Source: a virus
Length of the DNA stretch: 64,000 nucleotides
Virus record (IMG/VR): IMGVR_UViG_3300047678_000431
Span: 1-64,000 of that record
Strand: one strand, 5' to 3'
Shown here: piece after piece, positions 6,249-62,152 of the stretch
Layout of the letters: the number at the start of each line of letters is the position of its first letter
Position numbering within the stretch: the first letter of the stretch is position 1
The notes under the pieces: model-generated
The model's database searches: none
What the model saw: only the letters and a program-made list of their open reading frames with translations
What the model was told of the DNA's origin: nothing
Program-made: the position numbers and the translations under genes

Positions 6249-6293
6249 AAAAGACGTTACGCCTGGCATATTGCCCGCGTGACGTCTTTTTTT
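6249..6293. terminator. Intrinsic terminator (usable both ways)
   Basis: AAAAGACGT-ACGC and GCGT-ACGTCTTTT arms (6249-6262 and 6277-6290), each interrupted by one base, with a T run on the plus strand and an A run at the other end. It separates 5775-6224 from the repeat-fibre block. Confidence 0.75.
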
Positions 6294-6315: not shown

Positions 6316-7158
6316 ATGTCGAACTCTGGCCTCGGATACCAAGACCAAGCCCTTCAGGGTTTACTGAATGCAAAGGTCGTCGAAGCGCGCGAATTCACGC
6401 TCGTCAATACGACATCGAGTACGGCGATCACCGCCGTAGGAACGGCGACGATAACGGTGGGATCGGCGACGAATATCGCCGTCGACCAGAACCTCACGGT
6501 CGACACCGGCACGAATCAAGAAACGGTTCTCGTGACGGCCGTATCCGGCACGAGTGTCACGGCCTATTTTACGAAATCGCATTCCGCCGGATTCTCCGTC
6601 GTCGCAAAGGTTTTGCGTCAGCCGTGTATCATCGCCGACCCGACGACGCAAGCCGCGATGGTAGGCGTGACTGCGAAAGGCGTGCAGCAGCCGTACGGCC
6701 TGCAAACGGTCGAGATGAACAACGCGGGGCGCAACCTGATGACCCTTGTTTGCGATGCGCAAACGATCGGATCGACAAGCGAAACGCTTCTTTCATTCGT
6801 GCAGAATCTTGGAACTGTCGCAACGACCGGAAACAATTACACCGTATCGACCGGAAAAACGCTACGCATTCAATCGGTCAATGTCATGGCGAGTAATACA
6901 TCCGGCACGCTCACGCCGACGGCCGTGAGTTCATCAATTCGCATGCGCGTGAATCCGAGCGGCGCTGTGACAACGTCGTCCGCTTTGCGTGCAAGTGTTC
7001 AAACGGGGCTCATTTCAGCGCAATCAAACGGCAATCCGCCGTTCGGGATCGCCGGGGAAATGGAAATCCCCTCGGGTTGGACGATCGGATTCTCGCGTCA
7101 AGATACGACCGCAAGTCTTCTCATCGTTACCGTCAGCATCATCGGCTACGAATTCTAA
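6316..7158 (+). CDS. Ser/Thr-rich beta-structured protein, likely surface or fibre accessory
   Basis: 280 residues from an ATG behind GGAG. Very rich in Thr, Ser, Val and Ala, with short alternating beta segments (AITAVGTATITVGSATNIAV) and an N-terminal helix. It has the look of a virion surface or fibre-attached protein. It is the first gene of the block that contains the two giant repeat proteins and is separated from the first by 28 bases. No family was recognised. Confidence 0.6.
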   Translation: MSNSGLGYQDQALQGLLNAKVVEAREFTLVNTTSSTAITAVGTATITVGSATNIAVDQNLTVDTGTNQETVLVTAVSGTSVTAYFTKSHSAGFSVVAKVLRQPCIIADPTTQAAMVGVTAKGVQQPYGLQTVEMNNAGRNLMTLVCDAQTIGSTSETLLSFVQNLGTVATTGNNYTVSTGKTLRIQSVNVMASNTSGTLTPTAVSSSIRMRVNPSGAVTTSSALRASVQTGLISAQSNGNPPFGIAGEMEIPSGWTIGFSRQDTTASLLIVTVSIIGYEF

Positions 7159-7186: not shown

Positions 7187-10100
7187 ATGCCGATCATCAT
7201 GCTTCCCGGATTAGATTACACCGGGTTTATTTCCGCGAACGCAAGTTCTATCATTGCAAGCACGCAAACGAAAACGCTCAATGCGGCGGCAATTCTTGCC
7301 AAGACGATGACGCAAAATATCGGCGCCGGTATGGACATCGTGCGCACGACGAACACGCTCATCGGCGCTGCAATGGTCGTTCGCGCGACAACCTCGCAAA
7401 CGATCACGGCCGCTGCACATATCGCGATTACGGCCACGCAATCAATGGGCGCCGGAATGCGCATCGTCCGAACGACGACGACGACGATTCCCGCCGCGAT
7501 GACCATTGCGGCAACGGCAACGCGCACGATCGGTGCGGGGATGTCGGTTTCGCAAAAGTTGACGACGACCATCGCGGCCGCATCGGTCATTTCGATCACG
7601 ACGAGCGCGTCGATCGGTGCGGCGGCGCATATCGCCGCGACGGCACATGCGAACATTGCCGCCGCGATGGTGATCCTCGGCCAGGGTAACGCTACGATCA
7701 CCGCCGGAATGAAAGTCTCACCGGCGATCACCGCGACGATTGTCATCAACGCCGCAAGCCGGATCGCTGCGAAGGGGTCGACCGCGATCAATGCGGCCGC
7801 GAGAATTTCCGTCACGCAACCGATGTCCATCGGTGCTGCAATGCTGATCAAGGGAACCGGAACGGCGACCATAGGCGCGGGCCTCGCAGTCGCGGCAAAG
7901 GCCACAACCTCGATCAACGCGGCCGCGAATATCATGGGCGCAATCACGACCACGAAGTCGATCAGCGCCGCGATGATTATCGCCGCGAGCGCAAGCGCGA
8001 ATCATATGGGTGCGGCCGCTCTTATCTCGGCGAAGGTCACACAGGCGGCCGGTGCCGGTGCGATGATCGCATCCACCGCAAAAACCTCGATCGGTGCGGC
8101 CGCCGTCGTCGTCGCAAATTTCCACCAAGGAATCGGCGCGGCGATGATCGTTAAACCGGTCACCCTTGCAACGGCATCAATGAACGCCGGAATGCTCGTG
8201 ATCGCCACGGCGACCCGGTCGATCGGTGCGGGGGCGCGCATCAAGGCAAAGGTTACCTCGACCATCGGTGCCGCCTCGACCCTTTCGGCTACCGGATCAA
8301 CGTCGGCCGGTGCGTCCGCGATCGTTCTTGCGACGACCTCGCGGACCCTGAGTGCAAATCTCATCATCATCACGAGCACGCTTGCAACGGTGAACGCGGC
8401 GGCGACGGTGGCGGCGAAATTCTCGCAAACCGCGTCGGCGGCGGCAATCATCTCGGCCACCGGCACAATGCAATCGTCGGCGGCGGCGGTGATCGTGCAA
8501 TCGACTACCCTTTCGGCCGGTGCGGCGATGGCCGTGTCGGCGCAATCCTCGCAAAGTATCGGCGCGGGGATGATCATAGCGGCGACGTCGACCGCCTCGA
8601 TCGGTGCGGGGGCGCTCGTCTCCATTACGACGACGGCCTCGGCGGGTGCGGCCGCGATCGTTCAATCAACCGCGTCAACGACCATCGAAGCGGCGTCGCA
8701 AATTTCAAACACCGTTACGGTGAGCATGTGGGCCGGTAGCCGCATTCAAAAGACGGAAACGCTCGCGATGACGGCCGCAATGATCATTCAATCGACCGTG
8801 ACGCCTTCGATCGGTGCGGCGGCGGTGATTGCGACGACCGTCAATGCGACCACCGGTGCCGCGATGGCCGTGCAAGCGCAATCAATGCGAACCCTCAATG
8901 CCGGGGGGATTATCTCGCAACAAATCACCTCATCCCTTGGCGCAAACCTGATCGTTCTCGGAATCGGGAAACAGTCGGCGGGTGCCGGTGCGATTGTCCT
9001 CGGGAACGGCGTTGCGACGGCGCGAGCGGGTGCAGTGATCGCGGCGATCGGTTCGACCTCGATCGGTGCGGGCATGTTGATCGTCGGCAAGGGCCTCGCA
9101 ACGATCGGGGCCGCGTCGCGGATCGTGACATCGGGGCACATGGCCCTTCACGCCGCCGCCGTAATCGCCGTAACGGGGGTAAAATCGGCCTCTGCGGCCG
9201 CTGCGATCTCAAACCGGCTTATGATGTCGATCGGCGCCGGAATGACCGTCAGAGGCAAATTGAAGACCTCGATCGGTGCGGCGATGACGGTGCAAGAGCC
9301 CGCACGCATGTCCCTCTCGGCGCAAATGGCCGTGCGCGGTATCGGTCGGACCTCGATCGGTGCGGGAATGGTCATTCGTCCCTTTGGGACGACGGTCGCG
9401 ATGATCGGTGCGGCGATGGCCGTCGCATCCGAGACGACGACCTCGATCGGCGCGCATGCCTACATCATGCAAATCGCATCGAAAACGATCGGTGCCGGTA
9501 TGCATATCGTGAAGGGTGGAAACATCGTCACGATTCTGGCCGAGATGTATATCTCGATCAAAGTGCAGCAAAGTATCGCCGCCGGTATGCGCATCGTTGC
9601 AACCGGCACGACCTCGATCGGTGCCGCATCTCGCATCGTTGCAACCGGCACGACCTCGATCGGTGCCGGTGCGAACATTGCCATGATGGCGACCCGGTCA
9701 ATCGGTGCGGCCTCCTATATCGTCACGCATCACACGCAAGGCATCGGCGCGGCCGCAAGGATTACCGCGCGAGGTTCGACCTCGATCGGTGCGGGCATGC
9801 GCATCGTGCGCAATGTCTCGATGTATCTCTATGCGGCTTCGGCGATCTCGGTCACCGCGACAAAGAGTCTCGGGGCGGCGATGAAGATCGTCGATCGCGA
9901 GCGTCTCACACTTGGGGCCGCGTCCTACATCACGCAATCCACGAGCGCGTCGATCGGTGCAGCCGCGATGATCGAGCAAATCGTGCAAGAGACGATCTCG
10001 GCCGGAATGTGGATCGTGCAACCGGGTTCCGCCTCGATCAACGCGGCGATGATGATCCTCGGCGTCACACATGCATTCATGCAAGCTCGCGCGATCATTA

Positions 10101-10357
10101 TCGCACGCGCGACCATGAACCTCAGTGCGAATGCGCAGATTTCGCAAACCGAAGAGATCTCCATCGGTGCGTCATCCGCGATCTCGATTACGACCGAGGC
10201 GACCATCGGTGCGGCGGCACTCATTGCGATCGTTGATCGTGTGAGTATCGGTGCGGCGATGCGTATCGGTCGCGGCAATCCGCAACACAAGGCAACGCGC
10301 CGCATTCTTTCTGTCACCATTCAACGCGACATCGAAGGCCGCACCTACTGGGTCTGA
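7187..10357 (+). CDS. Giant 14-residue-repeat protein 1, putative fibre
   Basis: 1056 residues. After about 24 residues, nearly the whole protein up to residue ~1020 consists of units of 14 residues with consensus [ST]-[IL]-G-A-[AG]-M-x-I-x-x-x-x-[TS]-x, by my reading about 70 units, many in strict register (for example SIGAGMRIVATGTT then SIGAASRIVATGTT). The C-terminal ~35 residues are different and basic (RRILSVTIQRDIEGRTYWV). There is no Cys and no signal peptide. Regular Ala/Gly/Ile spacing suggests a beta-solenoid or similar rod; this is inference. A long tail fibre or head fibre is the best guess, but it lies about 25 kb from the virion block. Confidence 0.75.
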   Translation: MPIIMLPGLDYTGFISANASSIIASTQTKTLNAAAILAKTMTQNIGAGMDIVRTTNTLIGAAMVVRATTSQTITAAAHIAITATQSMGAGMRIVRTTTTTIPAAMTIAATATRTIGAGMSVSQKLTTTIAAASVISITTSASIGAAAHIAATAHANIAAAMVILGQGNATITAGMKVSPAITATIVINAASRIAAKGSTAINAAARISVTQPMSIGAAMLIKGTGTATIGAGLAVAAKATTSINAAANIMGAITTTKSISAAMIIAASASANHMGAAALISAKVTQAAGAGAMIASTAKTSIGAAAVVVANFHQGIGAAMIVKPVTLATASMNAGMLVIATATRSIGAGARIKAKVTSTIGAASTLSATGSTSAGASAIVLATTSRTLSANLIIITSTLATVNAAATVAAKFSQTASAAAIISATGTMQSSAAAVIVQSTTLSAGAAMAVSAQSSQSIGAGMIIAATSTASIGAGALVSITTTASAGAAAIVQSTASTTIEAASQISNTVTVSMWAGSRIQKTETLAMTAAMIIQSTVTPSIGAAAVIATTVNATTGAAMAVQAQSMRTLNAGGIISQQITSSLGANLIVLGIGKQSAGAGAIVLGNGVATARAGAVIAAIGSTSIGAGMLIVGKGLATIGAASRIVTSGHMALHAAAVIAVTGVKSASAAAAISNRLMMSIGAGMTVRGKLKTSIGAAMTVQEPARMSLSAQMAVRGIGRTSIGAGMVIRPFGTTVAMIGAAMAVASETTTSIGAHAYIMQIASKTIGAGMHIVKGGNIVTILAEMYISIKVQQSIAAGMRIVATGTTSIGAASRIVATGTTSIGAGANIAMMATRSIGAASYIVTHHTQGIGAAARITARGSTSIGAGMRIVRNVSMYLYAASAISVTATKSLGAAMKIVDRERLTLGAASYITQSTSASIGAAAMIEQIVQETISAGMWIVQPGSASINAAMMILGVTHAFMQARAIIIARATMNLSANAQISQTEEISIGASSAISITTEATIGAAALIAIVDRVSIGAAMRIGRGNPQHKATRRILSVTIQRDIEGRTYWV
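7260..10260 (+). repeat. 42-bp coding tandem repeat array
   Basis: DNA period 42 bp, matching the 14-residue unit. Many units share the same bases, such as TCGATCGGTGCGG. Two neighbouring units are identical over their core (starting at 9590 and 9632, exactly 42 bases apart), pointing to recent duplication or gene conversion. Boundaries are approximate. Confidence 0.8.
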
Positions 10358-10381: not shown

Positions 10382-13243
10382 ATGCCTACCACTGCAACCG
10401 CAACAATCGCAGCCGCCGCGCAAATCGGATTCAATAACAACGGCCAATATCGCGCGGCCCTTCTCGCTGATCATCCGGTCCGCTTGTACGAACTTAATGA
10501 CGTCGGCGGACCGGCGCGCGATACATCCGGCAACAACGGTCCCTCGGGAACGTATGGTTCATCGGTCACGCAAGCGCCGAGCATTTGCCCGAGTGATTAC
10601 GGCGGTTTCAGCGCACGTATGCCGCTTGCCGCGAATACCTCATATGATGCGAATGCGATCGTTGAGTTTCCCGACGATCCGGCGATCAATTTCAACGGGA
10701 CATCGTTTTCCGTCGAGTTTATTTATTCATGGCCTTATACCGGAGCGGGTTCGCCCAATTTTGGCGGGCAAAATTGCTATTTTGTGAACTTGCAGGACGA
10801 AACCGGACTCATGGTCGGTCATCCTCCTGGTAATTCAAAAAATATCGTCAATGTGAACGGCGTGCAAGTCGCTTCGGGTATTCAAGATCTCTTTGCATAT
10901 GATCAACCGGTTCATCACGTGTTTACATATGATGCCGTCGCGCAAATGCTTTATATCTATGTCGACGGATACTTGATCGAATCCGTACCCGCTGCGCCGG
11001 GGACATTCAACTCCGGGACCGGTTTACGCATCGGTCAACGCGGCACGGGTTCGCAACCGACGCAAAACTCCGACTTTCAATACGTCTCGATCTTTAATTA
11101 CGTGTTAACACAATCGCAGGTGACAAATCACGCAAACGCCGCCGGGATCAATAATTATAGTTATACCGGCGGCGGAAGTGTTCTTCGTTCTGCCGGTGCA
11201 TCCGCAAAGATCGGCACGAACCAAGATGAAAACTATCAGCGCGCCGTCATTGCCGATCACCCTCTTCGGTATTATCGCTTAAACGATACGAATTCGACCG
11301 CACTTGACACATCGGGCAACAATGGCCCCTCGGGAACGTGGGGAACTTCAGTTCTGCATGGCGGGAGTATTGTCGCCTCGGATTATGTCGACGGTTCGGC
11401 GCAATTCCCGTCCTCCGGCAATACCTCGCCCGATCCGAATTCGATCATCACGTTCCCGGAAGATCCGCCTATTCAATTCAACGGGACATCGTTTTCCATT
11501 GAATATTTTTACACGTGGAACGCCGATAATTCGAATTTCAGCGGACAAGAATGTTCCTATATTAACCTCGAAGACAATACTGGCGTTCGCGTCGCATTTC
11601 CGCCGAGTCAATCGCTACAAACGAAGGTATATTTCAACGGTGCGGTCGCATTGACGACCGGGCGCGGCGCATATATCGGCGTGCCGAATCATTGCGTCAT
11701 CACGTATAATGCGTCGACCTCTTTACTGAGTTATTATCAAAACGGATTACTGCAATCGACGGCAACCGTCAACGGCGCGACGTTTAACTCCGGGATCGGA
11801 TTGCGATTAGGTCAACGCGGTACCGGGACGCTGCCCGCGCTCAATGGCGACCTTTCCGACGTCGCGATCTATGGATCGGCCCTCTCTGCGACGCAAGTGC
11901 AGAACCATGCAAACGCCGCTGGCGTCAATAGTTACCCCGGCGGCACGGTCACGCGATATGTCGGCGCCGCGATGGCGATTGCGACGCATTCTTTAGGAAC
12001 AACCTCGATCAATGCCGCGATGATGATCAATGTGTCGGGAAATGCGACTATCAACGCCGCCGCGCACATCGTCAGTAAAGGCATGACATCAATCGGCGCC
12101 GCTTCTCGCATTTCGGTTCCCGCTGCGACGAAAACCATCGGTGCGGCAATGGCCGTCGCGATCAAATCGAGCGCGTCGATTCTTGGTGAGATGATTGTCT
12201 CGGCGAAGATCACGCAATCAATGGGCGCGGCAATGCGCGTCACGAAAACGGTGCAGCCGACAATCGGTGCGGCGATGGCCGTGCAACAATCGACGTCGCA
12301 GTCGATGCGCGCGAATATGGTCGTGCGCATGCCCTCGAGTATGACAATCGGTGCGGCAATGCATGTTGCGGCCTTGCCGATGACCACCCATATCGGTGCG
12401 GCGATGGCGATTGTCGATGTCGGGTACGCGCAAATCGGTGCGGGTATGCGGGTACTCGGGGTCGTGAAGAAAACGATCGGCGCGGCGATGCGAATCTCCG
12501 TGGGGAATACCCTCTCGATGAATGCCGGTGCCTACGTCGTGACGGCGGTCCAGCAAAGTATCGGCGCTGGTATGTGCGTGAAGGCGAACTTCCATGTCTT
12601 CATCGGGGCCGCAAGTCGCATCGTGAACTCGAACACGAAGTCGATCGGTGCGGCGATGTTGATCGGGGTGCCGGGCACGCTCGGTATCATCGCAGAAATG
12701 CACGTCTCGAAGGTTGCGAAGGTGTCGATCGGCGCGGCGATGTTCATATATGGGACCGTTCGTCAAACGATCGGTGCCGGAATGTCGATCATCGCAACGA
12801 CGCAAAAGTCGATCGGTGCGCGTGCAAGCGTCGTGAACGTCGCAACACAAACGATCGGTGCGGCGATGAACGTCATTCCGACGAACTACGTGCAAGGCGG
12901 CGCCGGGATGATCGTTGCACAAACGGTGCAGCAGTCAATCGGCGCGGGCATGATGACCTTTCAAATCGAGAACACGTTCCGCGTTCTCCCGGCAAACATG
13001 CGCATCATCGCAAACGGCACGATCTCGATCGGTGCCGGTATGATGATCGCCTTCGAAACCGGGGTCATGTCCATCGGTGCCGGGATGATGATCTTTGCAC
13101 CGTTCGTTCCGAACCTCGCGGCGAATATGTACGTCGTGAATATCGGTTCGATGTCGATCGCGGCGGGCATGCGGATCGGCCGTGTGACAACGAGTTTCGT
13201 GAATCGCGAACTCTACGCCGAGCCCTATTACGGTCAAGACTAA
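10382..13243 (+). CDS. Giant protein 2: two LamG-like domains plus 14-residue repeats
   Basis: 953 residues. Residues ~20-260 and ~285-515 are two copies of a concanavalin-A-like (LamG/laminin G type) lectin domain, seen as YRAALLADHPVRLYELND ... DTSGNNGPSG ... INFNGTSFSVEF ... GLRIGQRGTG ... NHANAAG, each repeated. From ~525 to ~935 the 14-residue repeat of the preceding gene returns (SIGAAMFIYGTVRQ, TIGAGMSIIATTQK), about 28-30 units. The last ~20 residues differ (NRELYAEPYYGQD). LamG-like domains bind glycans, so this is probably the receptor- or glycan-binding partner of protein 1. It starts 24 bases downstream of that gene. Confidence 0.75.
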   Translation: MPTTATATIAAAAQIGFNNNGQYRAALLADHPVRLYELNDVGGPARDTSGNNGPSGTYGSSVTQAPSICPSDYGGFSARMPLAANTSYDANAIVEFPDDPAINFNGTSFSVEFIYSWPYTGAGSPNFGGQNCYFVNLQDETGLMVGHPPGNSKNIVNVNGVQVASGIQDLFAYDQPVHHVFTYDAVAQMLYIYVDGYLIESVPAAPGTFNSGTGLRIGQRGTGSQPTQNSDFQYVSIFNYVLTQSQVTNHANAAGINNYSYTGGGSVLRSAGASAKIGTNQDENYQRAVIADHPLRYYRLNDTNSTALDTSGNNGPSGTWGTSVLHGGSIVASDYVDGSAQFPSSGNTSPDPNSIITFPEDPPIQFNGTSFSIEYFYTWNADNSNFSGQECSYINLEDNTGVRVAFPPSQSLQTKVYFNGAVALTTGRGAYIGVPNHCVITYNASTSLLSYYQNGLLQSTATVNGATFNSGIGLRLGQRGTGTLPALNGDLSDVAIYGSALSATQVQNHANAAGVNSYPGGTVTRYVGAAMAIATHSLGTTSINAAMMINVSGNATINAAAHIVSKGMTSIGAASRISVPAATKTIGAAMAVAIKSSASILGEMIVSAKITQSMGAAMRVTKTVQPTIGAAMAVQQSTSQSMRANMVVRMPSSMTIGAAMHVAALPMTTHIGAAMAIVDVGYAQIGAGMRVLGVVKKTIGAAMRISVGNTLSMNAGAYVVTAVQQSIGAGMCVKANFHVFIGAASRIVNSNTKSIGAAMLIGVPGTLGIIAEMHVSKVAKVSIGAAMFIYGTVRQTIGAGMSIIATTQKSIGARASVVNVATQTIGAAMNVIPTNYVQGGAGMIVAQTVQQSIGAGMMTFQIENTFRVLPANMRIIANGTISIGAGMMIAFETGVMSIGAGMMIFAPFVPNLAANMYVVNIGSMSIAAGMRIGRVTTSFVNRELYAEPYYGQD
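11960..13190 (+). repeat. 42-bp coding tandem repeat array in protein 2
   Basis: The same 42-bp/14-residue unit as in the preceding gene, about 28-30 copies by eye, with the same favoured codons (ATC GGT GCG GCG ATG). Boundaries are approximate. Confidence 0.75.
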
Positions 13244-13263
13244 CCGAACAATCAAGTAAACAA

Positions 13264-13290
13264 GGGGGCCGGGCAACCGGCTCCCTTTCT
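13264..13290 (+). terminator. Hairpin with GCAA loop, terminator or leader
   Basis: A nine-base stem (GGGGGCCGG/CCGGCTCCC, one G-U pair) closed by a GCAA tetraloop and followed by TTTCTC. It is almost identical to the hairpin at 45873-45902. In both places the T stretch runs straight into the ribosome binding site of the next gene. Confidence 0.65.
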
Positions 13291-14844: not shown

Positions 14845-16743
14845 GTGAAAAGATTGCTTTCATGCGTTCTTGCGTGCGTGTATGCGTGCGTTCTTGCGTC
14901 TTGTGATAACACGCCGACTCCGCAACCGATCGTCGTAAGCCCGACGCCCGTCGTCTCGGCCGCCCCGATCCCGACGCAAGTACCGACGGCCACGCCGACG
15001 CAACCGCCGACGCAACCGCCGACGCCCGTTCCGACAATCGCGCCGACTCCGATTCCGACGGTTGCGCCGACCATTGCGCCGACGCCCATTCCGACGATTG
15101 CGCCAACCATTGCGCCGACCATCGCCCCGACGCCGGTGCCGACAATCGCGCCGACGCAGAGTACTACCCTCGCGCCGACCCCGGTTCCCACCGTGGCGCC
15201 TACCGTGCGCCCGACGCCGATCCCGACGGTTGCCCCGACGCCGGTGCCGACTGTTCGACCGACGCCGATTCCGACGGTTGCCCCGACGGTTGCGCCGACA
15301 CCGATCACGATCATCATCTCGCAGGGAACACCGACGCCGTCCCCTATGTCTGCCCCTACTGGAACGCCGACCTCTGTTCCGACTACCTCGCCGATCGTAG
15401 GGGCGGCACCGGCACACTGGGCGAGTTTGTACGGGGAATTCGATTGCACGACGGCCGCGAATTACACGCCCGCGCAGTGGGCCGTTCTCGGGCAATATAT
15501 CAATATCAGCGACCGCGTTTGCGCGCCTGAGATTGCGAGTGCCGAAGCCGTCGGCGTGACATCGGGCACCTACACCGATCCGACGCTGCCGTGTACCGCG
15601 ACGTCGACGACGTCATGTTATAGCTTCAATGAGGCGTCGAACTATTCGTCCGCATCATGGGCGCGGACGTGTGGCGGCGCGCAAATCTACCTCGGCGACC
15701 CAAGTGACGGGCACAATACCCGCACGAACCCCGGCGCGCGGTCGCTCGTGACGGATTTTCAAAACTACGCCGTTTTGCCATTTAAGCAAGCGGGCGGCCA
15801 GTTTATCCTCGCCGATAATTTATACAAACCGACGGCCGACGGGGAATACACCGGCAGGCCCGGGGGAACGCCGGTGAGCGGTTCGGCGGCTTGGTGTAAT
15901 TACACCGATGCAACGTGGATCGCGAATTATACGACGTTCTTTTCAGCCCTTTCGCTGCCGGTCATGTATAACGGCGACACCGAGCCCGATCTCGCGGCGA
16001 TCACGGCGTCGCCGCAAGTCAAATGGGGGATGTGCGAAGACTGTCTCTCATTCGGATTCAACGAATCGGCGGACCCCGGTCGCCTCAAAGAGCGCCCGCC
16101 GTTCTGGCAAAACGAACTCGGCGCGGGTTTGGTGACGATGGGAAACGGAAAATCCTGGTTCGTTTTCACGCACGGATACAACGAACCAAAAAACAACGAC
16201 GTTCAGAACTATGTCCTTGCGTCATTATTATTGATTTATGAGGACGGAAAAACCGGGTGGATGATGGACGGTGACACGAAGAGCGGCATCAATACGCCGG
16301 TCGGGGTGTACTTCGTTCCGACGCAACCTCTTGTCGCATCAAATGCGATCACCTCGATCGAATCGCTTAACGTCGGGGGCGCGTATGTGCGCGAGTATGC
16401 CGCGTGTTATCTTTACGGCAAAAGCGTGGGCGCATGCGCGGCCGTCGTCAACCCGAACCCCTCGGGATCGGTGCCGATGCCGAAGCTCTCTCGCGCGTAT
16501 GCCGGGTCGGTTTCGATTGATAATTGGTGCGGCACGGCCTCGGCGCCGTCAAACCTTGGGGGTTCGTATTGCTATAAGGGCGCGACGACGCAATGGGGCG
16601 ACACGGGGAGCGTCTCGATCGTTCCGGCCGTCGTTCCGGCCGTTATTCCACCGGCCGAAGCGTACATCTTCACACAGAACGCAAAATCCGGCGGGTCGCG
16701 CCGTCACCATACACGGCGGCGACTGATTCAAGGGCATTCCTAA
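14845..16743 (+). CDS. Lipoprotein with Pro/Thr stalk and globular C-terminal domain
   Basis: 632 residues, GTG start behind GAGG. The N-terminus is a lipoprotein signal with a lipobox LASC (Cys20). Residues ~22-185 are a Pro/Thr/Ala stalk of PTPIPTVAPT-type repeats. The C-terminal ~440 residues form an enzyme-like domain (WASLYGEFDCTTAANY, GGQFILADNLYK, LPVMYNGDTEPD, TGWMMDGDTKSG) that looks like a TIM-barrel glycosidase-like fold, perhaps of the poorly described GHL15 type; this is tentative. It ends in a short basic tail. The GCGT repeat encodes part of the signal peptide (Cys-Val-Leu-Ala-Cys-Val). It would anchor a cell-surface enzyme or binding protein on the infected host. Confidence 0.65.
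   Translation: MKRLLSCVLACVYACVLASCDNTPTPQPIVVSPTPVVSAAPIPTQVPTATPTQPPTQPPTPVPTIAPTPIPTVAPTIAPTPIPTIAPTIAPTIAPTPVPTIAPTQSTTLAPTPVPTVAPTVRPTPIPTVAPTPVPTVRPTPIPTVAPTVAPTPITIIISQGTPTPSPMSAPTGTPTSVPTTSPIVGAAPAHWASLYGEFDCTTAANYTPAQWAVLGQYINISDRVCAPEIASAEAVGVTSGTYTDPTLPCTATSTTSCYSFNEASNYSSASWARTCGGAQIYLGDPSDGHNTRTNPGARSLVTDFQNYAVLPFKQAGGQFILADNLYKPTADGEYTGRPGGTPVSGSAAWCNYTDATWIANYTTFFSALSLPVMYNGDTEPDLAAITASPQVKWGMCEDCLSFGFNESADPGRLKERPPFWQNELGAGLVTMGNGKSWFVFTHGYNEPKNNDVQNYVLASLLLIYEDGKTGWMMDGDTKSGINTPVGVYFVPTQPLVASNAITSIESLNVGGAYVREYAACYLYGKSVGACAAVVNPNPSGSVPMPKLSRAYAGSVSIDNWCGTASAPSNLGGSYCYKGATTQWGDTGSVSIVPAVVPAVIPPAEAYIFTQNAKSGGSRRHHTRRRLIQGHS
14862..14903. repeat. GCGT-type dispersed repeat, copy b
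   Basis: GCGT units with two TTCTT steps, lying in the signal-peptide codons of the lipoprotein gene and read there as Cys/Val/Ala/Leu. Confidence 0.75.
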
Positions 16744-32223: not shown

Positions 32224-32967
32224 ATGAGATCGTACGGCGTCAAGTCTCGGGACTTTCATACCGAGCGTTTTGGCCTTTTCGTCCCGGATCGTCCGGCCGT
32301 CGGATTACTCCCGACGACGGTTGAATATCAATATCTCTTTTCGCCCGTTGACGATCAAGGCGATTTTTCCAGTTGTATTTTCCACGCGAGCAAAGGCATT
32401 CTCGACGCGATCATTCGGAAGCGATCGAAGGTCGATCCGGGTGTATCTTGGCGCGCGTTATATTCCGCAACGAAGCATCTGTTCGAATCGAATGATCTTG
32501 CCGATGACGGTGCGGTTATCGAACACGGCCTCAATTTGCTCATGCAATACGGATACGTCGAAGAATCCGCGTGGACCGATGTCGACGTCACCCCCGACAA
32601 TGTGTTGACTCCGGTGCCCGATGATCTCTTCGTGAAAACCGATACGGTCACAAGTATTCTTCGCGTCGGTATCAACGAAGAAAGCTTTTGTCACGCGTTA
32701 TATGGTCACGGCCCGATTATCATCGGCGTGAATTGGCCGAGTGCGTGGGAATTTCCAACCGATGCGAGCGGCATTCTTGATCCGAATGTCTCCGACATTG
32801 CGGGCGGTCATTGTGTCGTCATCACCGGGTATCGCCGACAGTCGAACGTCACGTATTATCACATTCGCAATTCGTGGGGCACTGCATGGGGTGATCGCGG
32901 TTATGGGTGGATGCCCGCAAGCGGACTCGGGTTCGTCACAAACGCCTACACCGTTCAAATTCCCTAG
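32224..32967 (+). CDS. Papain-like cysteine protease (family C1)
   Basis: 247 residues with an intact C1 active site: DQGDFSSC gives oxyanion Gln45 and nucleophile Cys51; GGHCVVITGY gives His196; IRNSWGTAWGDRGYGW gives Asn216. There is no signal peptide and the usual inhibitory prodomain is absent; only ~35 residues precede the domain. Start supported by position and frame. It ends 17 bases before the portal gene, at the head of the virion operon, where a maturation protease could act. But an HK97-type prohead protease is also present (37695-39041), so this one may cleave tail, host or virion entry proteins instead. Confidence 0.85.
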   Translation: MRSYGVKSRDFHTERFGLFVPDRPAVGLLPTTVEYQYLFSPVDDQGDFSSCIFHASKGILDAIIRKRSKVDPGVSWRALYSATKHLFESNDLADDGAVIEHGLNLLMQYGYVEESAWTDVDVTPDNVLTPVPDDLFVKTDTVTSILRVGINEESFCHALYGHGPIIIGVNWPSAWEFPTDASGILDPNVSDIAGGHCVVITGYRRQSNVTYYHIRNSWGTAWGDRGYGWMPASGLGFVTNAYTVQIP

Positions 32968-32984
32968 CACGAAGGAGCGCCGCG

Positions 32985-34721
32985 ATGCCGTCATTGATTT
33001 CCTCAATACAAAAAAGCGTCGCGCGCATCCTCGCCGGTCCCGACATTAACATTCCGCGTAAAGGTGCGATCTCTCCGGTTTCAATCAAACAAGATCGTCA
33101 GTTTATGGACGGCGGTCGGATCGAGCCGCGCAACATCATTGCGCGCAATAACCTGCAATCGCTTGCCGAGCGTGATGATGTGATCGTCGCCCTTCGCCGC
33201 GTGTTGCGCAACGGTATCGGAAATCTCAAATGGCACATAGTCCCCGATATTGACGCAATCGAAGCCGACATCAAGCGATGGAAATCGACCGTTGCGCTGA
33301 ACCTTGCCATGCCGGGCATGCACATGACGTTTCATCCGCAGGCGATGACGCATGAGTTTTATGCTGGTGCAACCGGTGAGTTGCGCGATCTTCTCGTTTC
33401 TGAAGCTGAAACAGGTGCCGAGTTCGAAACCTCGACGCGATTGCATCAATTTTTCGAAAACATTCTCGCCGCGCATAGCGTGATCGCGGAAAGTCACGTC
33501 GCCGAGGTGAAGTCCCTCTTCGATAAACCGAACGCAAATGACACCTGGAGAAGTTTCATTTCGCGGGTTGTTGATCAGTTGTCGCTCTTCGATGCCGCTG
33601 CAATCGTGAAGAATCCGATGATGAACGAAGATCGCATCGGTGAGATCTATCTTCTGCCCGGCGAAGACGTGCGCGTCTATCGTCGGCGCGATCTTCTCCA
33701 ACCGATTCCGCCCTTTACGGCGTTTGATTGGTCGGTCAATGATCGGATCTTCGCGTATTTCAATGCGTTTGAAATGTGCTATATTACCGCGAACCCGCAG
33801 CAGAACGGATACGGGAAACCGCCGCTTGAGGCGCTCGTACAACAAATGCTCGGATCAATTTCCGGTGATCAGTATCTTCTCGAATTCTTCGCAAATAATA
33901 ACATGCCCGCCGGTATCTTTGACCTCGGCCCGAACGTTGATCAAGGTGAACGAGACGCAGTCGAAACGCACGTGAACAATCAAGCGCGCAAAGGTTTGCG
34001 GCGCATTATGTTCGTGTCGAACATGGATGGCGTCAAGGGATTTATGCCCATGCCGCAGCAGCCGATGAAAGATAATGACATCGTCAACATGTTCGACATG
34101 TGGACGAAGCGAAAAGCTGCCGTCTTTGGGCTTTCTCCGAATGACATCGGACATACGCAAGATATGCATCTTGCAAATGCGGATAATCAAGCCGAACTGA
34201 CGCAATCTCGCGGCATTGATTCGATCGCCAAAGCAATCGAGAACGAACTCAATGTCCATATCGTCAAAGGTACGATGTGGCGCCGTAATAATCCCGAAGA
34301 CGTCAATGATCCGACCGGTATTCCGATGCCGGTCTTTCCCTTTCAAGACGTACGATTCGAATTTATTACCGGCGAGAAGGATGAGAACGCCGATCTCTCT
34401 GATCGTGATCTCAAACTTTGGGGCATGGGCGCCCTGTCGACAAACGAGATTCGCAAGTCGCATGGATTGCCGCCGGTCCCCGGCGGTGATACGCATGTCG
34501 TCAATCAGCAGGTGACGATGAAAGTCGATGACCTGCCGAATCTTCCCGCGCCGACGCAAATGGACACTGAGGTCCGCTTGCCCGATGGCCGCGAGCGTGA
34601 TGAACGTCCAGGCGCAAACGCGCAGCAAAACGAGCAAAGACCGCCGACGCCGTCACCGGAACAGGCGGAAAAAAACCTTACCGCGTTAGCTCATAAGCTC
34701 GCGCAGATCGTCAAAGGGTGA
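32985..34721 (+). CDS. Portal protein
   Basis: 578 residues from ATG 32985 behind AAGGAG. It has the length and layout of HK97/SPP1-type portals: RNIIARNNLQSLAERDDVIV, LPGEDVRVYRR, NPQQNGYGKPPLEALVQQ, FANNNMPAGIFDLGPNVDQG, RKAAVFGLSPNDIGHTQDMH, followed by a Pro/Gln-rich tail. It forms the dodecameric DNA channel at one capsid vertex. The family assignment rests on the GYGKPPLEAL and FGLSP motifs and on the downstream neighbours (MuF-like, protease, capsid). Confidence 0.85.
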   Translation: MPSLISSIQKSVARILAGPDINIPRKGAISPVSIKQDRQFMDGGRIEPRNIIARNNLQSLAERDDVIVALRRVLRNGIGNLKWHIVPDIDAIEADIKRWKSTVALNLAMPGMHMTFHPQAMTHEFYAGATGELRDLLVSEAETGAEFETSTRLHQFFENILAAHSVIAESHVAEVKSLFDKPNANDTWRSFISRVVDQLSLFDAAAIVKNPMMNEDRIGEIYLLPGEDVRVYRRRDLLQPIPPFTAFDWSVNDRIFAYFNAFEMCYITANPQQNGYGKPPLEALVQQMLGSISGDQYLLEFFANNNMPAGIFDLGPNVDQGERDAVETHVNNQARKGLRRIMFVSNMDGVKGFMPMPQQPMKDNDIVNMFDMWTKRKAAVFGLSPNDIGHTQDMHLANADNQAELTQSRGIDSIAKAIENELNVHIVKGTMWRRNNPEDVNDPTGIPMPVFPFQDVRFEFITGEKDENADLSDRDLKLWGMGALSTNEIRKSHGLPPVPGGDTHVVNQQVTMKVDDLPNLPAPTQMDTEVRLPDGRERDERPGANAQQNEQRPPTPSPEQAEKNLTALAHKLAQIVKG

Positions 34722-35196: not shown

Positions 35197-36090
35197 ATGC
35201 ATACACTCGAATTCGACCTCGGCATGATTGCGATTAAGAGTCGCAAGCCGGTTCGCGAAGTCATCAAAGCGTTGCAAGATCACTGGAATCTTCCGCGATA
35301 CGCCCCAAACCTGCGCAAGGCGGCGGGGGATGACGACGGTTCGAGTACGGCTGGAAATCATGACATCCCGGAGATCGGACGACAAGAGGCCGCTTTTTAT
35401 AACGCTCTCACCGCCGGTCAAAAAGAGGCGTATGCCGCCATCCGGGAACTTGTCAATCGTTTGCATGAAAGCAAGGGCGGATGGGCCGGGATTAACCCCT
35501 GGGACATCGACGAACCGATTGATCAGTGGAAAGACAACGCATTTTATGAACTCGCAACGCATCCGATGCGTGCGTATATGGTCGGTCAGATGCTTGCGAC
35601 CGATGCAATCGACAATGGCCTCGCGCGGCCAGTTTTGCCGACCGACACGCAAGCGATCGAATTCTTAAATTCATATGCGTTCAACGAGATTCAATCGGCA
35701 TTCGATAACATGAAGTCGGATCTTCGCAACGCGCTCATTCAGGGGATGCAACGCGGGGACAACCCGCGCGAGGTTACGCGTGCGCTTCATGACACGATCA
35801 GCGGATACGAAATCGACTGGGATCTCATCGCAATCACCGAAACCGCGCGCGCCGAGAGTCAAGGCCGACTTAACGAACTTACCGATCAAGGTTATGAGTA
35901 CGCAATCGGATCAAGTGCGCACGACTCGCGCACCTGCGAAGATTGTTTGCGCCTGGTCAACGATGTGGTCGTCGATGTGAAAGATACTGTCGGCGTTTCA
36001 AATTATGGGCGCAAAAAAGCTGACTGGGTGACATGCATACCGCTACATCCGCGATGCCGTTGCGTATGGCTCCCCTACTCGCAACCGTGA
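35197..36090 (+). CDS. MuF-like head morphogenesis protein (SPP1 gp7-like)
   Basis: 297 residues. Near the C-terminus the MuF core is clear: AITETARAESQGRLNELTDQ, HDSRTCEDCLRLVND and HPRCRCVWLP, with the Cys residues of the domain. The N-terminal part is helical. Such minor head proteins bind the portal and are packaged inside the capsid, sometimes ejected. Its position after the portal is typical. Confidence 0.82.
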   Translation: MHTLEFDLGMIAIKSRKPVREVIKALQDHWNLPRYAPNLRKAAGDDDGSSTAGNHDIPEIGRQEAAFYNALTAGQKEAYAAIRELVNRLHESKGGWAGINPWDIDEPIDQWKDNAFYELATHPMRAYMVGQMLATDAIDNGLARPVLPTDTQAIEFLNSYAFNEIQSAFDNMKSDLRNALIQGMQRGDNPREVTRALHDTISGYEIDWDLIAITETARAESQGRLNELTDQGYEYAIGSSAHDSRTCEDCLRLVNDVVVDVKDTVGVSNYGRKKADWVTCIPLHPRCRCVWLPYSQP

Positions 36091-37694: not shown

Positions 37695-39041
37695 ATGCAA
37701 TTACAGCATCGCCGATTTTTCATTCCCTTTGCTAAGGAAAAGATCGACAAAGAACGTCGTATCGTCTGGGGCATTGCGCAAGAAGAATCGGTTGATACAC
37801 AAGACGACCGCCTCATGTACGATGCGTCAGTCGCCGCGTTTTCTGCGTGGGCCGGAAACATTCGCGAGCAACACGATGATAGTAAAGCCGTAGGTCGAGC
37901 GATTGAGATTATCGCCGATCCAAAAGCGAAGACCATCACCGTCGGCGCGCGTATTTCGCTCGGTGCCGAGGATACGTGGCAAAAGGTTCTCGATGGTACG
38001 CTTACCGGTTATTCAATCGGCGGCGTTCTTCAGGAATTTGCGCTCGACTATGATCCTGAATATCAGAGAAATATTCGCAACGTGACAAAGTACGAACTGT
38101 ACGAGCTTTCGCTCGTCGACGTTCCGGCGAATTCAGGTTGCGTGATTACCGCCGTGCAGAAGCGCGGTACACATCTCGTCGCGACCGACGTGCTTGCGCA
38201 CAGTCTCGGCGCGCTAACTGCGAGCGACGTGCTCAACATGAAGAAAGCGAGTCAACCCATGCCAAACGCAAAGCGCGCCAAGGTACAAACGATCGTCAGC
38301 TTCGCCAAATCACTCGGCGCGAACGATGAGGTTATTCTTCTTCGCACAAGCGACCTAAGCAAAGCAAAAGACGGAAGCATCGTCTTGAAGTCGACGGCTC
38401 CCGTCTCGGGCATTATTCGCAAAGATGATCTCGACGCCGACGGTTATACCGATGAATCCGATGACACAAGCAGCGAGAACGAACCCGAACAAATCGACTT
38501 TGAGCAACATGCCGAGAACGCCGCAAAGATGCATAAAGCATTTTGCAAGATGGGCGGCATTGACGACAACGAAGGCCATTATCTCGAATCGACCAAGGAA
38601 GACGGCGATGACGATATGGCTATGGGTGACGAGCCAAAGGATGACCCGTCGGGCATGAAGTCGCGTCGTTTACGCCGCGAAAAAGCGCGTCGCATCGAGG
38701 CCGCAAAATCGGCAACGCAAAGCAAACTTGAAGCGCAAGTCGCGGCGTTGAGCGATCAAGTTGTTGCCTTGACGAAGACCCTTTCCTCCGGCGGATCAAC
38801 GACAGCCGTGACCCCGCGCGTCGGCGCCGGTCAAGCTGGTACCGTGGTCGAGAAGGGCGGCGTCGCCGTCGCGAATTCGCAAGAAGCGCGCCTCGCCGAA
38901 CTCAAATCCAAGGCCGCCGAGATGGTCAAGTCCGGTTCTAAAGGTCTTACCCAAAAAGATCGCGCCGAACGCGACGCAACGCTTAACGAGATTCTATCTC
39001 TTGAGACGGCGATCCGCGCAGGTTTCGACCCGAAAGCCTAA
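37695..39041 (+). CDS. HK97-type prohead protease fused to a scaffold
   Basis: 448 residues. The N-terminal ~165 residues are an HK97-family prohead protease: NIREQHDDSKAVGRAIEI (His60), TGYSIGG (Ser107), YELYELSLVDVPANSG. The long C-terminal part is acidic, then basic, with coiled-coil stretches (SKLEAQVAALSDQVVALTKT) as in scaffold proteins. The fused scaffold is cleaved by its own protease during capsid maturation. It lies immediately upstream of the major capsid gene, as expected. Confidence 0.82.
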   Translation: MQLQHRRFFIPFAKEKIDKERRIVWGIAQEESVDTQDDRLMYDASVAAFSAWAGNIREQHDDSKAVGRAIEIIADPKAKTITVGARISLGAEDTWQKVLDGTLTGYSIGGVLQEFALDYDPEYQRNIRNVTKYELYELSLVDVPANSGCVITAVQKRGTHLVATDVLAHSLGALTASDVLNMKKASQPMPNAKRAKVQTIVSFAKSLGANDEVILLRTSDLSKAKDGSIVLKSTAPVSGIIRKDDLDADGYTDESDDTSSENEPEQIDFEQHAENAAKMHKAFCKMGGIDDNEGHYLESTKEDGDDDMAMGDEPKDDPSGMKSRRLRREKARRIEAAKSATQSKLEAQVAALSDQVVALTKTLSSGGSTTAVTPRVGAGQAGTVVEKGGVAVANSQEARLAELKSKAAEMVKSGSKGLTQKDRAERDATLNEILSLETAIRAGFDPKA

Positions 39042-39157: not shown

Positions 39158-40219
39158 GTGTCAACATCGCAATTAACTGCGGATTATGTGCTTCAGAGCC
39201 TGCAAGGCGTCGATGCTCTTATCCGTAAAAGTGCAACCCCCGTTCTCGGCCTCGAAGTCGTTCGCCAGGATTTAGAGAACGAACTCAAACTCGCTGCAAA
39301 CCTTGATACGCCGCTTCGTAATCGAATGAAGCGTATCAAAGGCGAAGGCAAAGCGCACGCATTCTATCAGCTGCAATCGAATCTCGATTCGACCGGCCAA
39401 GTTCGATTCTTAGGAACCGACGCAACGAACGGCGTGTTCGCAAAGGGCGGCCTTCCGAACTCTGTCGATGCGCAATACAATTACATCGCCCGGCCGTACG
39501 CAAACGTCGGCGACGTAATGACAATCCCGTTCCAAGACATTGCGCAAGATGCTTCGTATATCGAAATCAAGGCGCAGCAGAAACGCGTGAAGATGCTCAA
39601 CACCGGGTTGATTGAAGAATACTTAATCATCAACGGAAATAGCGACACGACAAGCGGTCTTGAGTTCGACGGTCTGCTCACTCAGATCTTAAACGGCGGA
39701 TATAATATCCTCGACGTGAGTGCCGCCGGTGGTTCGCCCCTGCGATACTCTTTGATCACGCAAGAGCTTTTCCGCATCAAGAAGGCGGGCGGACGTACGC
39801 GCGCGCTGATCATGTCTTACTCGATGAAAGCAGCGTTGACTGAGCTTCTCGGTTTGTACTACGCAATTCGCCAAGTAGGCACCGGCGGCGGTACGAACTA
39901 CGCGGGCGGCTTCTCGACCGAATCGTGGGACTTCGGAACCGGATCGGTCGACCTCATTGACGATCAGTATATGATCCCCGATCCTGTGACCGGTCTTGAG
40001 CGCATCATCTTCATCGACGATGAAACGCCCGATGACAAGAACGGCGGAAACGTCATTCAAATGGTCGACGTCGATCCGATTCATTATCAGGATCTTGCGA
40101 CCATCGCGACCGCAGAACGCGGCATCGTGTATGAAACGACTCAGCTGATGATCGGCATCCTGCAATTTCAGGGCCTTATCACCGGATTCAATCTGTCGTT
40201 AACTCCGACGATCGCCTAA
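39158..40219 (+). CDS. Major capsid protein
   Basis: 353 residues, GTG start behind GGGAG. The fold is HK97-like by context and pattern: an N-terminal arm and helix (ELKLAANLDTPLRNRMKRIK), a beta domain (EEYLIINGNSDTTSGLEFDG), and a C-terminal part (TAERGIVYETTQLMIGILQF). It sits between the protease-scaffold and the connector and is flanked by hairpin terminators on both sides, consistent with high expression. Confidence 0.8.
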   Translation: MSTSQLTADYVLQSLQGVDALIRKSATPVLGLEVVRQDLENELKLAANLDTPLRNRMKRIKGEGKAHAFYQLQSNLDSTGQVRFLGTDATNGVFAKGGLPNSVDAQYNYIARPYANVGDVMTIPFQDIAQDASYIEIKAQQKRVKMLNTGLIEEYLIINGNSDTTSGLEFDGLLTQILNGGYNILDVSAAGGSPLRYSLITQELFRIKKAGGRTRALIMSYSMKAALTELLGLYYAIRQVGTGGGTNYAGGFSTESWDFGTGSVDLIDDQYMIPDPVTGLERIIFIDDETPDDKNGGNVIQMVDVDPIHYQDLATIATAERGIVYETTQLMIGILQFQGLITGFNLSLTPTIA

Positions 40220-43680: not shown

Positions 43681-45273
43681 ATGGGGATCTTTTCTTTCAA
43701 CGGCCAGAACGTTTATGCGCCGCAAGTTCTTGTACGCACGGAGATCGGCGCGAATCGCGCGTTGACGTTGCTTCCGAACGGTGTCATCTGTTTCGTCGGC
43801 GCCTCCGACGGCGGTCGGCAAAACGGGATATATCAATTCAATGACCTACCATCCGCGCAGCGTCTACTACGATCGGGCGACTTGCTCGATGCAATCGTCG
43901 CCGCCGTAGGCGAAGGTGCGAGCGCCGGTTTCGTTGCCGTGGTCGCGAACACGAAGACGAGCGCATCGAGTACGATCGACGGGTCGACCGGTGAAGTCGC
44001 GACCTTATCTTCGGGCGATCAAGGATTCTACACGAACTCGATTTCATATAAGATCGCCGCCGGAACAAATAGCGGTTTTGTCTTCACGCTCACCTATCTC
44101 GATCAGAACAATAACACGATCACCGTCGGCGGCCCGGGTACCGCATACGATAATCTCGTCGACATGGTCGCATTGCAGACGCTGCTCGTGAATAATTCCG
44201 TTGTCACGCCTCCGGCATCGACGAACTTGCCTCCGGTTGTGACGTTGACCATTACGACAAACGGTGTTCCGAGTAGCACGGTCGGATTCGTGACCCTGGC
44301 GGGCGGCACCGGCACCGGTACCGATGCGCTGACGCAACCGGAGGTCGAAGCAGCCGTTGACGAGCTTGCAGACGTCCCCTTCGACATCGGCCATCTTGTG
44401 AAGTGCTATAGCTTCGCGATGCATAATTACGCCGACACGTTCGGCGGTCAGAAGATTGCGCCGTTTGGAAAGTTGCGCCGGTGGATTCATCAAGCGCCGC
44501 TTACCGGCGCCTCGGCAACGAATTCAAAGGCGGTCAATTCAGAGGCCGTCGCAAACTCCGTCATCGCGGCCGCGAACGCGATCAATTCGATTCGTTCGAG
44601 TTCGATGGTGCAGCAGGCACTCGTTTACAATAGCGGCACCGGAAAGCAGGCGTGGATGGATTTCGCGCCGCTCGTGTGCGGACGTGCATCCTTCGTCGGC
44701 GCAAATGACAACTGGGGACCGGCCTCACCGCTCACCAAGGTCGCGTTTCAAACCGTCCTCGATGTCGATTATGTTGCGCTTGCCACAACCGGCGACGTCG
44801 ATCGCGCACTTGAGGCGGGCGGATGGATATTCGAACGGAATAGCCGGGTCGCGACGCTTGGTTCCGTGCAGACGATTCAGTCGGTTACGACCGCACCGGT
44901 CGACCCGAACACGGGCCGTCCTTGGTTGTATTCCGAGTTCTCGATCGTGCGCGTTGCCGACGCGGTTCTTGCAAACGTCAAGGCCACGATTGAAACGCAA
45001 ACGCCGCGCGCAATCGGCGGCGGTAATACGCCGAAGACGATGGCCGCGATCCTCTCTGATGTCGTCGACGTGCTCGAAGCGGCGAAAGATAATCAATGGA
45101 TTATCTCTTATGATCGGTCCTCGATCACGATCAGTACGATCGGCAACCTTGGCGATGCCGACATCGTCAATTATTCAATGGTACCGACGCCGCCGCTCAA
45201 TCATATCGGCGTCACGCAAACGCTTCTCGCCTTCTCCGCGCAATTAACTGCCGGGAATACGGTCAGCAGCTAA
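43681..45273 (+). CDS. Tail sheath protein
   Basis: 530 residues behind AAAGGAG. It has the usual sheath traits: an N-terminal region (FNGQNVYAPQVLVRTEIGAN), a 'TNSISYKIAAGTNSG' beta region in the middle, and the conserved end of the core (GGWIFERNSRVATLGSVQTI, FSIVRVADAVLANVKATIET). A sheath means the tail is contractile. It is followed by a terminator and the tube gene. Confidence 0.82.
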   Translation: MGIFSFNGQNVYAPQVLVRTEIGANRALTLLPNGVICFVGASDGGRQNGIYQFNDLPSAQRLLRSGDLLDAIVAAVGEGASAGFVAVVANTKTSASSTIDGSTGEVATLSSGDQGFYTNSISYKIAAGTNSGFVFTLTYLDQNNNTITVGGPGTAYDNLVDMVALQTLLVNNSVVTPPASTNLPPVVTLTITTNGVPSSTVGFVTLAGGTGTGTDALTQPEVEAAVDELADVPFDIGHLVKCYSFAMHNYADTFGGQKIAPFGKLRRWIHQAPLTGASATNSKAVNSEAVANSVIAAANAINSIRSSSMVQQALVYNSGTGKQAWMDFAPLVCGRASFVGANDNWGPASPLTKVAFQTVLDVDYVALATTGDVDRALEAGGWIFERNSRVATLGSVQTIQSVTTAPVDPNTGRPWLYSEFSIVRVADAVLANVKATIETQTPRAIGGGNTPKTMAAILSDVVDVLEAAKDNQWIISYDRSSITISTIGNLGDADIVNYSMVPTPPLNHIGVTQTLLAFSAQLTAGNTVSS

Positions 45274-54342: not shown

Positions 54343-55155
54343 ATGTCGTTTTTTTATGCGACCGATCCGACGGTCATTGCGGGGATACCGGCCGCAACGA
54401 CGACGGTCGAAAGTCCGATGCTCTTGTCCGTCGGGCAGGCAAGCGGGATCGGGGTTGCCTCGGCGCTCCTTCCTGATCAAGTGACGAATGCGTCGGTTGC
54501 GTCGATGCAGCTTTTGCGTACGCTTCCCGGCGGGATGCAAATGCCGGTGGATACCCGAGACGTCGATCGCAATTCGCGATGGATGAACCTCTTCGATCAA
54601 AACCCGGCCGATGGTCAGATTGCGACATACGCGGTCGTCGCCATTTCTGAAGACGGCACGCAATCGAGTGAATCAAATTCGATTACATACACGGCGTACG
54701 GAAATCCGCCGCCCCTCGCGTCGGCCGGTGGTATTTCAGCGGGGGCGCTTGGGACCTACCCGCTTCTCGGGAGTGATGTCTATATCAACCCGATTTCCGG
54801 TGAGGCCGTCATCGGTCCGAATGGTGACCTCTTGACGGTCAACGGCCTCGCACTCCTCGGCCAGGATCTCAATACGCGCATTCGCACGAAGATCGGCGAA
54901 CTCGTGTTTCACCCGGATTTCGGCCTGTTTGGTGGCCTGATCGGAAGCGGTCAATCCGATCCCGCGACGATGGCAAACACGCTGCGCACGCGGGTCATTG
55001 ACGCGATCACGGCTGACGCGCGTGTCTATCAGCTTGACGAGGTTATCATTGCGCACCCGTATTTTGACGGGTGGCAAATCTCATACCTTGTGTATGCGAT
55101 CGGCGTCGAGGACCCGCTACGCGGAAACCTTGTGTATCCCTATTTGAACGGCTAG
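54343..55155 (+). CDS. Baseplate wedge protein with gp25-like domain
   Basis: 270 residues. The C-terminal ~110 residues match the T4 gp25/W domain: ALLGQDLNTRIRTKIGELVF, HPDFGLFGGLIGSGQSD, TRVIDAITADARVYQLDEV. The N-terminal part is a Fn3-like beta domain (TYAVVAISEDGTQSSESNSI). It is a wedge component of contractile baseplates. Confidence 0.72.
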   Translation: MSFFYATDPTVIAGIPAATTTVESPMLLSVGQASGIGVASALLPDQVTNASVASMQLLRTLPGGMQMPVDTRDVDRNSRWMNLFDQNPADGQIATYAVVAISEDGTQSSESNSITYTAYGNPPPLASAGGISAGALGTYPLLGSDVYINPISGEAVIGPNGDLLTVNGLALLGQDLNTRIRTKIGELVFHPDFGLFGGLIGSGQSDPATMANTLRTRVIDAITADARVYQLDEVIIAHPYFDGWQISYLVYAIGVEDPLRGNLVYPYLNG

Positions 55156-55174
55156 GCTTCGCGCTTTTTCTCCC

Positions 55175-55220
55175 GTGCTTGCGTGCGTGCGTGTATGCGT
55201 GCGTTCGTGTTTTTGCGTAC
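55175..55220. repeat. GCGT-type dispersed repeat, copy c
   Basis: GCGT units (GTGCTTGCGTGCGTGCGTGT core) in the leader of the gpJ-like gene, 20 bases upstream of its start. Intergenic. Confidence 0.75.
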
Positions 55221-55240
55221 CTTCGAAAGGCGGCGCCCGG

Positions 55241-56548: not shown

Positions 56549-56563
56549 TCAGAGGGGCGCCGT

Positions 56564-62096: not shown

Positions 62097-62152
62097 TACA
62101 AAGCCGATGGTTATAGGGTTTTCCATTGGTTTTCGGAAGGGAATTTTCACAC

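Follow-up and report, generated by a model that had tools for sequence, protein, structure and literature searches.

The window analysed here comprises the first 64,000 bases of an IMG/VR virus record that is 85,173 bases long and classed as linear. It carries two adjacent genes whose proteins, A and B, share a 14-residue repeat in long tandem arrays. On balance, we think with moderate confidence that A and B each contribute to a single virion appendage, a fibre with a beta-structured shaft and lectin domains, in a phage with a contractile tail. The following features, all on the plus strand, describe the two genes, the gene p0 that precedes them and their flanks.

6249-6290, +, hairpin followed by a T run, terminator-like, upstream of p0-A-B (RNA fold -24.5 kcal/mol, z -7.25)
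6316-7158, +, p0, 280 aa, Thr/Ser-rich orphan, first gene of the unit (ORF, Shine-Dalgarno-like letters)
7187-10357, +, protein A, 1056 aa (ORF, ATG start)
7232-10285, +, 72 units of 14 residues in A, [ST]-[IL]-G-A-[AG]-[MAS]-x-[IV]-x-x-x-x-[TS]-x (segmenting profile; wider-family profile hits)
10382-13243, +, protein B, 953 aa, 14-residue repeat and two LamG/concanavalin-like domains (PF13385 E=8.1e-20; repeats)
10403-10444, +, isolated unit TIAAAAQIGFNNNG just 5' of LamG domain 1 of B (segmenting profile)
10445-11158, +, LamG_3-like domain 1 of B (second PF13385 stretch; limits approximate, from likeness to domain 2)
11189-11230, +, isolated unit SAGASAKIGTNQDE between the LamG domains of B (segmenting profile)
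11471-11902, +, LamG_3 domain 2 of B, best Pfam stretch, residues 364-507 (Pfam)
11957-13195, +, 29 units of the 14-residue repeat in B (segmenting profile; DNA pattern; family profile hits)
13262-13290, +, GC-rich hairpin with a T-rich tail, terminator-like, after B (RNA fold -22.1 kcal/mol, z -2.73)

Based on the terminator-like hairpins before p0 and after B, the three genes probably form one transcription unit. No credible match of p0 was obtained in Pfam, PHROGs, NCBIfam, PDB or phage records. Downstream of the unit, a gene at 14845-16743 on the plus strand encodes a 632-residue protein that combines a lipoprotein-like signal (LASC) with an extended Pro/Thr stalk (PTPVPTIAPTPIP...), the DNA of which contains 12/24-bp tandem repeats; a family match was found in none of Pfam, PHROGs and NCBIfam.

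The reading frame of A, reported at 7187-10357 with 1056 residues by an earlier reading of the sequence alone, was confirmed, with an ATG start codon preceded by Shine-Dalgarno-like letters. According to the segmenting profile, the 72 units span residues 16-1033 and the unique ends are as short as that reading had described them, comprising 15 residues at the N terminus and about 23 at the C terminus. Autocorrelation of the protein peaked at lags of 14, 28, 42, 56, 70 and 84 (0.23-0.30 versus a mean of 0.12). The earlier estimate of about 70 units in strict 42-bp register was thus close in number and slightly too strong as to the register, as a few inserts of 1-2 residues occur, all of them at the junction of two units, after position 14 of the first and before position 1 of the second. 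Conservation within the unit is uneven. Ala occupies position 4 in 72 of 72 units, while A lacks an invariant Gly, the best Gly column being position 3 (41 of 72). Position 1 is mostly S (35) or T (21), position 2 I (44) or L (10), position 5 A (40) or G (22), position 6 M (29), A (27) or S (12), position 8 I (51) or V (19) and position 13 T (29) or S (15). The alternating positions 2, 4, 6 and 8 are conserved as apolar, with I, L, M or V at position 2 in 61 of 72 units and I or V at position 8 in 70 of 72.

The repeat is one of the protein level. Tandem Repeats Finder detected no 42-bp array within A, nucleotide identity from unit to unit averages 44%, and across the units the codon for Ala 4 is 100% identical at its first and second positions and 42% at its third. 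The units are therefore old and have been kept by purifying selection on the protein, for which these data are direct evidence. Neighbouring units are hardly closer to each other than distant ones (nucleotide identity 0.468 versus 0.445). A relaxed DNA pattern covering three units matched 24 times in the window, always within A and B, and not once in 100 shuffles.

Protein B, which adjoins A downstream and the repeats and LamG domains of which had been missed at first, matches A with phmmer E-values of 1e-37 and below. One unit is followed by a LamG-like domain, one unit by the second LamG domain, and then the 29 units follow. B scored 71.9 bits against PF13385 (cut-off 27.6) in two stretches. 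As read from the sequence, the LamG domains sit before position 1 of a unit, where other units have their inserts of 1-2 residues; since both occupy the same loop, this loop looks permissive. LamG domains are widespread, and their presence is no proof of glycan binding.

Searching IMG/VR with a strict consensus DNA pattern yielded four matches only, which were judged to be chance, and no relatives. Relatives were found with a relaxed six-unit DNA pattern, which revealed arrays of the form T-I-x-G-x-[AS]-R-I-x6. These were counted in at least 65 ORFs, distributed over about 53 virus contigs of IMG/VR, and have a median of 24 and up to 62 units. The uniqueness that the sequence-only reading had implied is therefore not upheld, a second copy of the repeat moreover lying next to A itself. 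Two to three repeat ORFs per contig are common in the family, as in the source virus with A and B. When A and B were left out of the scoring matrix, A reached a score of 189, while 1000 permutations of the unit columns gave 142.5 at most, and among 14 rotations only rotation 0 fitted (+1.75 versus -14 to -27). Both results, obtained without A and B in the profile, argue for kinship of A with the relatives, and the likeness of the repeat of A and B to that of a wider viral family is taken as shown. For B the same matrix gave a weaker result, its score being reached by 1 of 1000 permutations, and in A it called 35 of about 72 units.

In its traits A resembles the family in most respects. The 14-residue period runs through 72 units in A and 29 in B, beyond the 10 units used to define the family, and A shares the Gly/Ala at position 4 (76% G and 20% A in the family) and the apolar positions 2 and 8. 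Arg at position 7 (61% in the family) is found in only 11 of the 72 units of A; it is a majority feature, not a defining one, and is absent from the SxTADAxI subfamily. A has the highest unit number seen in this analysis together with a divergent core, Gly-Ala-Ala-Met, towards which subfamilies with Ala at position 4 form a bridge (L194 with TITAKGRI, L202 with SITADAII); phmmer aligned A with L194 at an E-value of 5e-20, calculated on a small set. One relative (L136) also combines LamG with the repeat, and a Gly_rich_2 domain was present in 3 of 31 members scanned. In two others (L213:2406-4586 and L277:1058-5725) different globular concanavalin-like stretches are, by eye, seemingly inserted between units, echoing the LamG insertions of B.

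The repeat is not represented in the libraries searched, in agreement with the first impression that it belongs to no named family. A had no Pfam family at E<=1, the repeat in A, B and nine relatives gave no credible match in Pfam or PHROGs, and that in A and B was unmatched in NCBIfam. Neither A nor one relative nor the family profile gave a credible match of the repeat in PDB, and when A, B and four relatives served as tblastn queries, no true member was retrieved from 50,697 phage records. No paper on such a 14-residue repeat was found in the literature. For GTDB genomes, those best-ranked matches of the strict DNA pattern that were inspected were all low-complexity look-alikes, and a search of cellular genomes at E<=1e-12, run without a positive control, gave a match in none of 301 genomes of one phylum and in 1 of 248 of another. 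Several candidates were rejected. Weak Pfam matches of relatives (T2SSN, MINT_RAM7, Death_MADD and similar) fell below the cut-offs and were taken as chance, a PDB match to Toxin A repeats had an E-value of 0.34, and the matches of B in phages Muntaha and FLC9 comprised LamG only.

The following genes of the window identify the source virus as a contractile-tailed phage.

32907-34721, portal
35197-36090, MuF-like
37695-39041, head maturation protease
39158-40219, major-head match, weaker
43681-45273, tail sheath
46884-49220, tape measure
54343-57226, baseplate
62126-63499, RecT-like

The distance from A to the portal gene is 23 kb, and the sheath and baseplate genes are 33-47 kb away; the location of A far from the tail genes, as first noted, thus holds. 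The head protein of the source phage, used as a query for kin, found none. Directly 5' of the portal ORF, a papain-family cysteine protease gene (32224-32967, +, PF00112, E 1.4e-15) overlaps the longest possible start of that ORF.

To characterize the surroundings of the relatives, 124 neighbouring proteins on 15 contigs were scanned, the loci being sampled around repeat genes in virus contigs, where structural genes are common anyway. The commonest neighbours were head-tail adaptors, major head proteins, portals, head proteases, tail terminators and tail fibre families. The repeat gene is flanked by portal and capsid genes or surrounded by head-tail adaptor genes, and in the contigs of five relatives it is 4-10 kb downstream of the portal. 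In six relatives a small Ig-like protein of 112-125 residues, with weak Pfam matches only, is encoded directly 3' of the repeat gene; no such gene was seen after B in the source genome. A further small protein, e197, is encoded by the source record outside the window.

L260:10429-10764, Ig-like follower of the repeat gene
L257:9395-9736, Ig-like follower of the repeat gene
L264:15298-15633, Ig-like follower of the repeat gene
L266:3264-3614, Ig-like follower of the repeat gene
L262:11133-11468, Ig-like follower of the repeat gene
L261:12206-12580, Ig-like follower of the repeat gene
L006:7507-8025 (record 82507-83025, outside the window), e197

In about 28 contigs a homologue of e197 is encoded upstream of the repeat gene and on its strand, with a median gap of 2.5 kb, a nearness that is partly built in because the loci were picked around repeat genes, whereas the constant strand and side are not. 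The e197 family has columns that are invariant across viruses, and no relatives of e197 were detected in PDB or phage records. In the source record e197 comes to within 9 kb of A only with the record ends joined, which would fit a circularly permuted genome.

Structure prediction by AlphaFold2, with all models calculated as a single chain, depended on the alignment provided. With seven paralogous rows the units were predicted with a pLDDT of 36; with 54 rows including relatives the pLDDT was 67 and the model was all-beta with a 14-residue rhythm. Each unit forms two short strands in it, located in the first units around positions 1-2 and 7-11. With a threshold of E<=0.001, Foldseek had no match either in PDB or to viral models, and its weak PDB list was rich in beta-solenoids. 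A beta structure of the repeat is thus likely according to the models; of the beta-solenoid-like rod proposed from the sequence, the beta character and the rhythm stand, but a solenoid is not established at this pLDDT and with no confident fold match. An intertwined trimer is a possible alternative to a solenoid. If one unit corresponds to one layer of about 4.1-4.8 angstrom (PMC9543794 and general knowledge), we infer a length of roughly 30-35 nm for A.

Several known systems resemble A in part. The grass antifreeze beta-roll (LbR_Ice_bind) has coils of 14-15 residues, and one family member touches its Pfam model (E 0.0009); this is one weak match among 31 members scanned, and A is unmatched. 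Synechococcus phage DSL-LC03 encodes a giant repeat protein (WJZ47902) beside a tail fibre gene and provided the sole, weak tblastn match of a relative. Nevertheless, this cyanophage was rejected as a member, the protein having another type of repeat with lags of 76/47/29, no 14-residue period and a family matrix score little above shuffles. Phage LamG_3 proteins such as gp18 of Streptomyces phage Muntaha, encoded just upstream of the portal gene, have LamG domains as in B but lack the 14-residue repeat. Trimeric autotransporter adhesin heads of the YadA/BpaC type form a left-handed parallel beta-roll with 14 residues per layer and a conserved Gly at position 8 (PMC9543794). They share with A the 14-residue layer and the long tandem arrays; A, however, has an invariant Ala and no invariant Gly, no match to a Pfam head, none of note to a PDB sequence and no confident fold match, and A and B are phage genes without an autotransporter anchor. 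The adenovirus-type triple beta-spiral is likewise a shaft of short repeats, in a virion fibre whose length is set by repeat number, but its hydrophobic repeat has 15 residues (PMC7248032) and that of A has 14. Fibre shafts made of short repeats (PMC7248032) and adhesin heads with a 14-residue beta-roll (PMC9543794) are already known. A, which belongs to an unnamed repeat family, lacks a defining feature of the YadA-type heads as well as one of the triple beta-spiral.

For the virion appendage that we favour, the following mechanism may be envisaged. p0, A and B would be expressed from one transcription unit, and each repeat would add one short beta layer, with strands near positions 1-2 and 7-11, a tight turn of small residues at positions 3-6 containing the invariant Ala 4, and a permissive loop at about positions 10-14. 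Stacked units would give a long shaft, the length of which would be set by their number. A would be nearly all shaft and B a shaft with two LamG domains spliced into the permissive loop near its N-terminal end; these concanavalin-like domains would act as glycan-binding heads, which the shaft would hold off the particle for host adsorption. The rod or fibre suggested by the sequence-only reading is consistent with the all-beta model, with the place of the relatives among virion genes and with a contractile-tailed phage, the solenoid apart. Counting against a fibre are the position of p0-A-B, which is not beside head or tail genes in the source genome, and a model of middling confidence that matched no solved or predicted fold.

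A serious variant, to which we give a tentative but substantial share of belief and whose probability overlaps with that of a virion fibre in general, places the repeat protein on the head or neck, as a fibre or decoration of the capsid or collar making loose first contact with the host or its surroundings. The gene order of the relatives points to this, with the repeat gene either between portal and capsid or in a group of head-tail adaptors, as does the Ig-like protein directly following that gene in six of them. The capsid fibres of phage 7-7-1 make contact with the flagellum, and their proposed anchor consists of Ig-type domains of a link protein (PMC12796354). However, gene position does not fix the position on the particle, and here the unit is 23 kb from the portal and B has no Ig-like follower. 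A more far-reaching proposal, which we regard as rather doubtful, is that the unit has an undescribed beta fold, either a roll or an intertwined trimer, and serves uncultivated phages as the length-adjustable shaft of head or neck fibres, carrying lectin domains in its loops and forming a conserved virion module with the e197-like protein. A role outside the particle, as a released or cell-surface matrix altering the infected cell or excluding other phages, would agree with the distance of A and B from structural genes and with the lipoprotein-like Pro/Thr-stalk gene 1.6 kb downstream. It is nevertheless quite improbable, as a terminator-like hairpin separates A and B from that gene, no signal peptide is evident by eye at either protein and the relatives occur in virion cassettes.

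The resemblance of A and B to the T-I-x-G-x-A-R-I arrays might also reflect convergence on a generic 14-residue beta rhythm, which would leave A and B as orphans. Short repeats converge easily, A has Gly-Ala-Ala/Gly-Met where the relatives have x-Gly-x-Ala-Arg, about half of its units escape the relatives' matrix and B scores weakly. We nevertheless consider convergence unlikely in view of the register-specific fit, the permutation test of A, the phmmer match to L194, the intermediate Ala-4 subfamilies and the e197 gene family common to the source virus and its relatives. Least probable of all, and by our estimate very much so, is that the array lacks a regular fold and acts as a flexible or disordered spacer. 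The low pLDDT of the first AlphaFold2 run would suit it, yet the apolar positions alternate, Ala 4 is invariant, and beta structure was predicted once relatives were added; moreover, single-chain prediction does poorly on intertwined trimers.

The repeat family described here is absent from the protein-family libraries and solved structures searched, yet it is present in dozens of uncultivated viruses; the linked e197-like protein provides an additional marker of the module. With a name for the family, many giant phage genes that now carry no label could be annotated in one step. A named family would also give access to the way in which uncultured phages adsorb, and its 14-residue unit would be a simple element from which to build protein rods.
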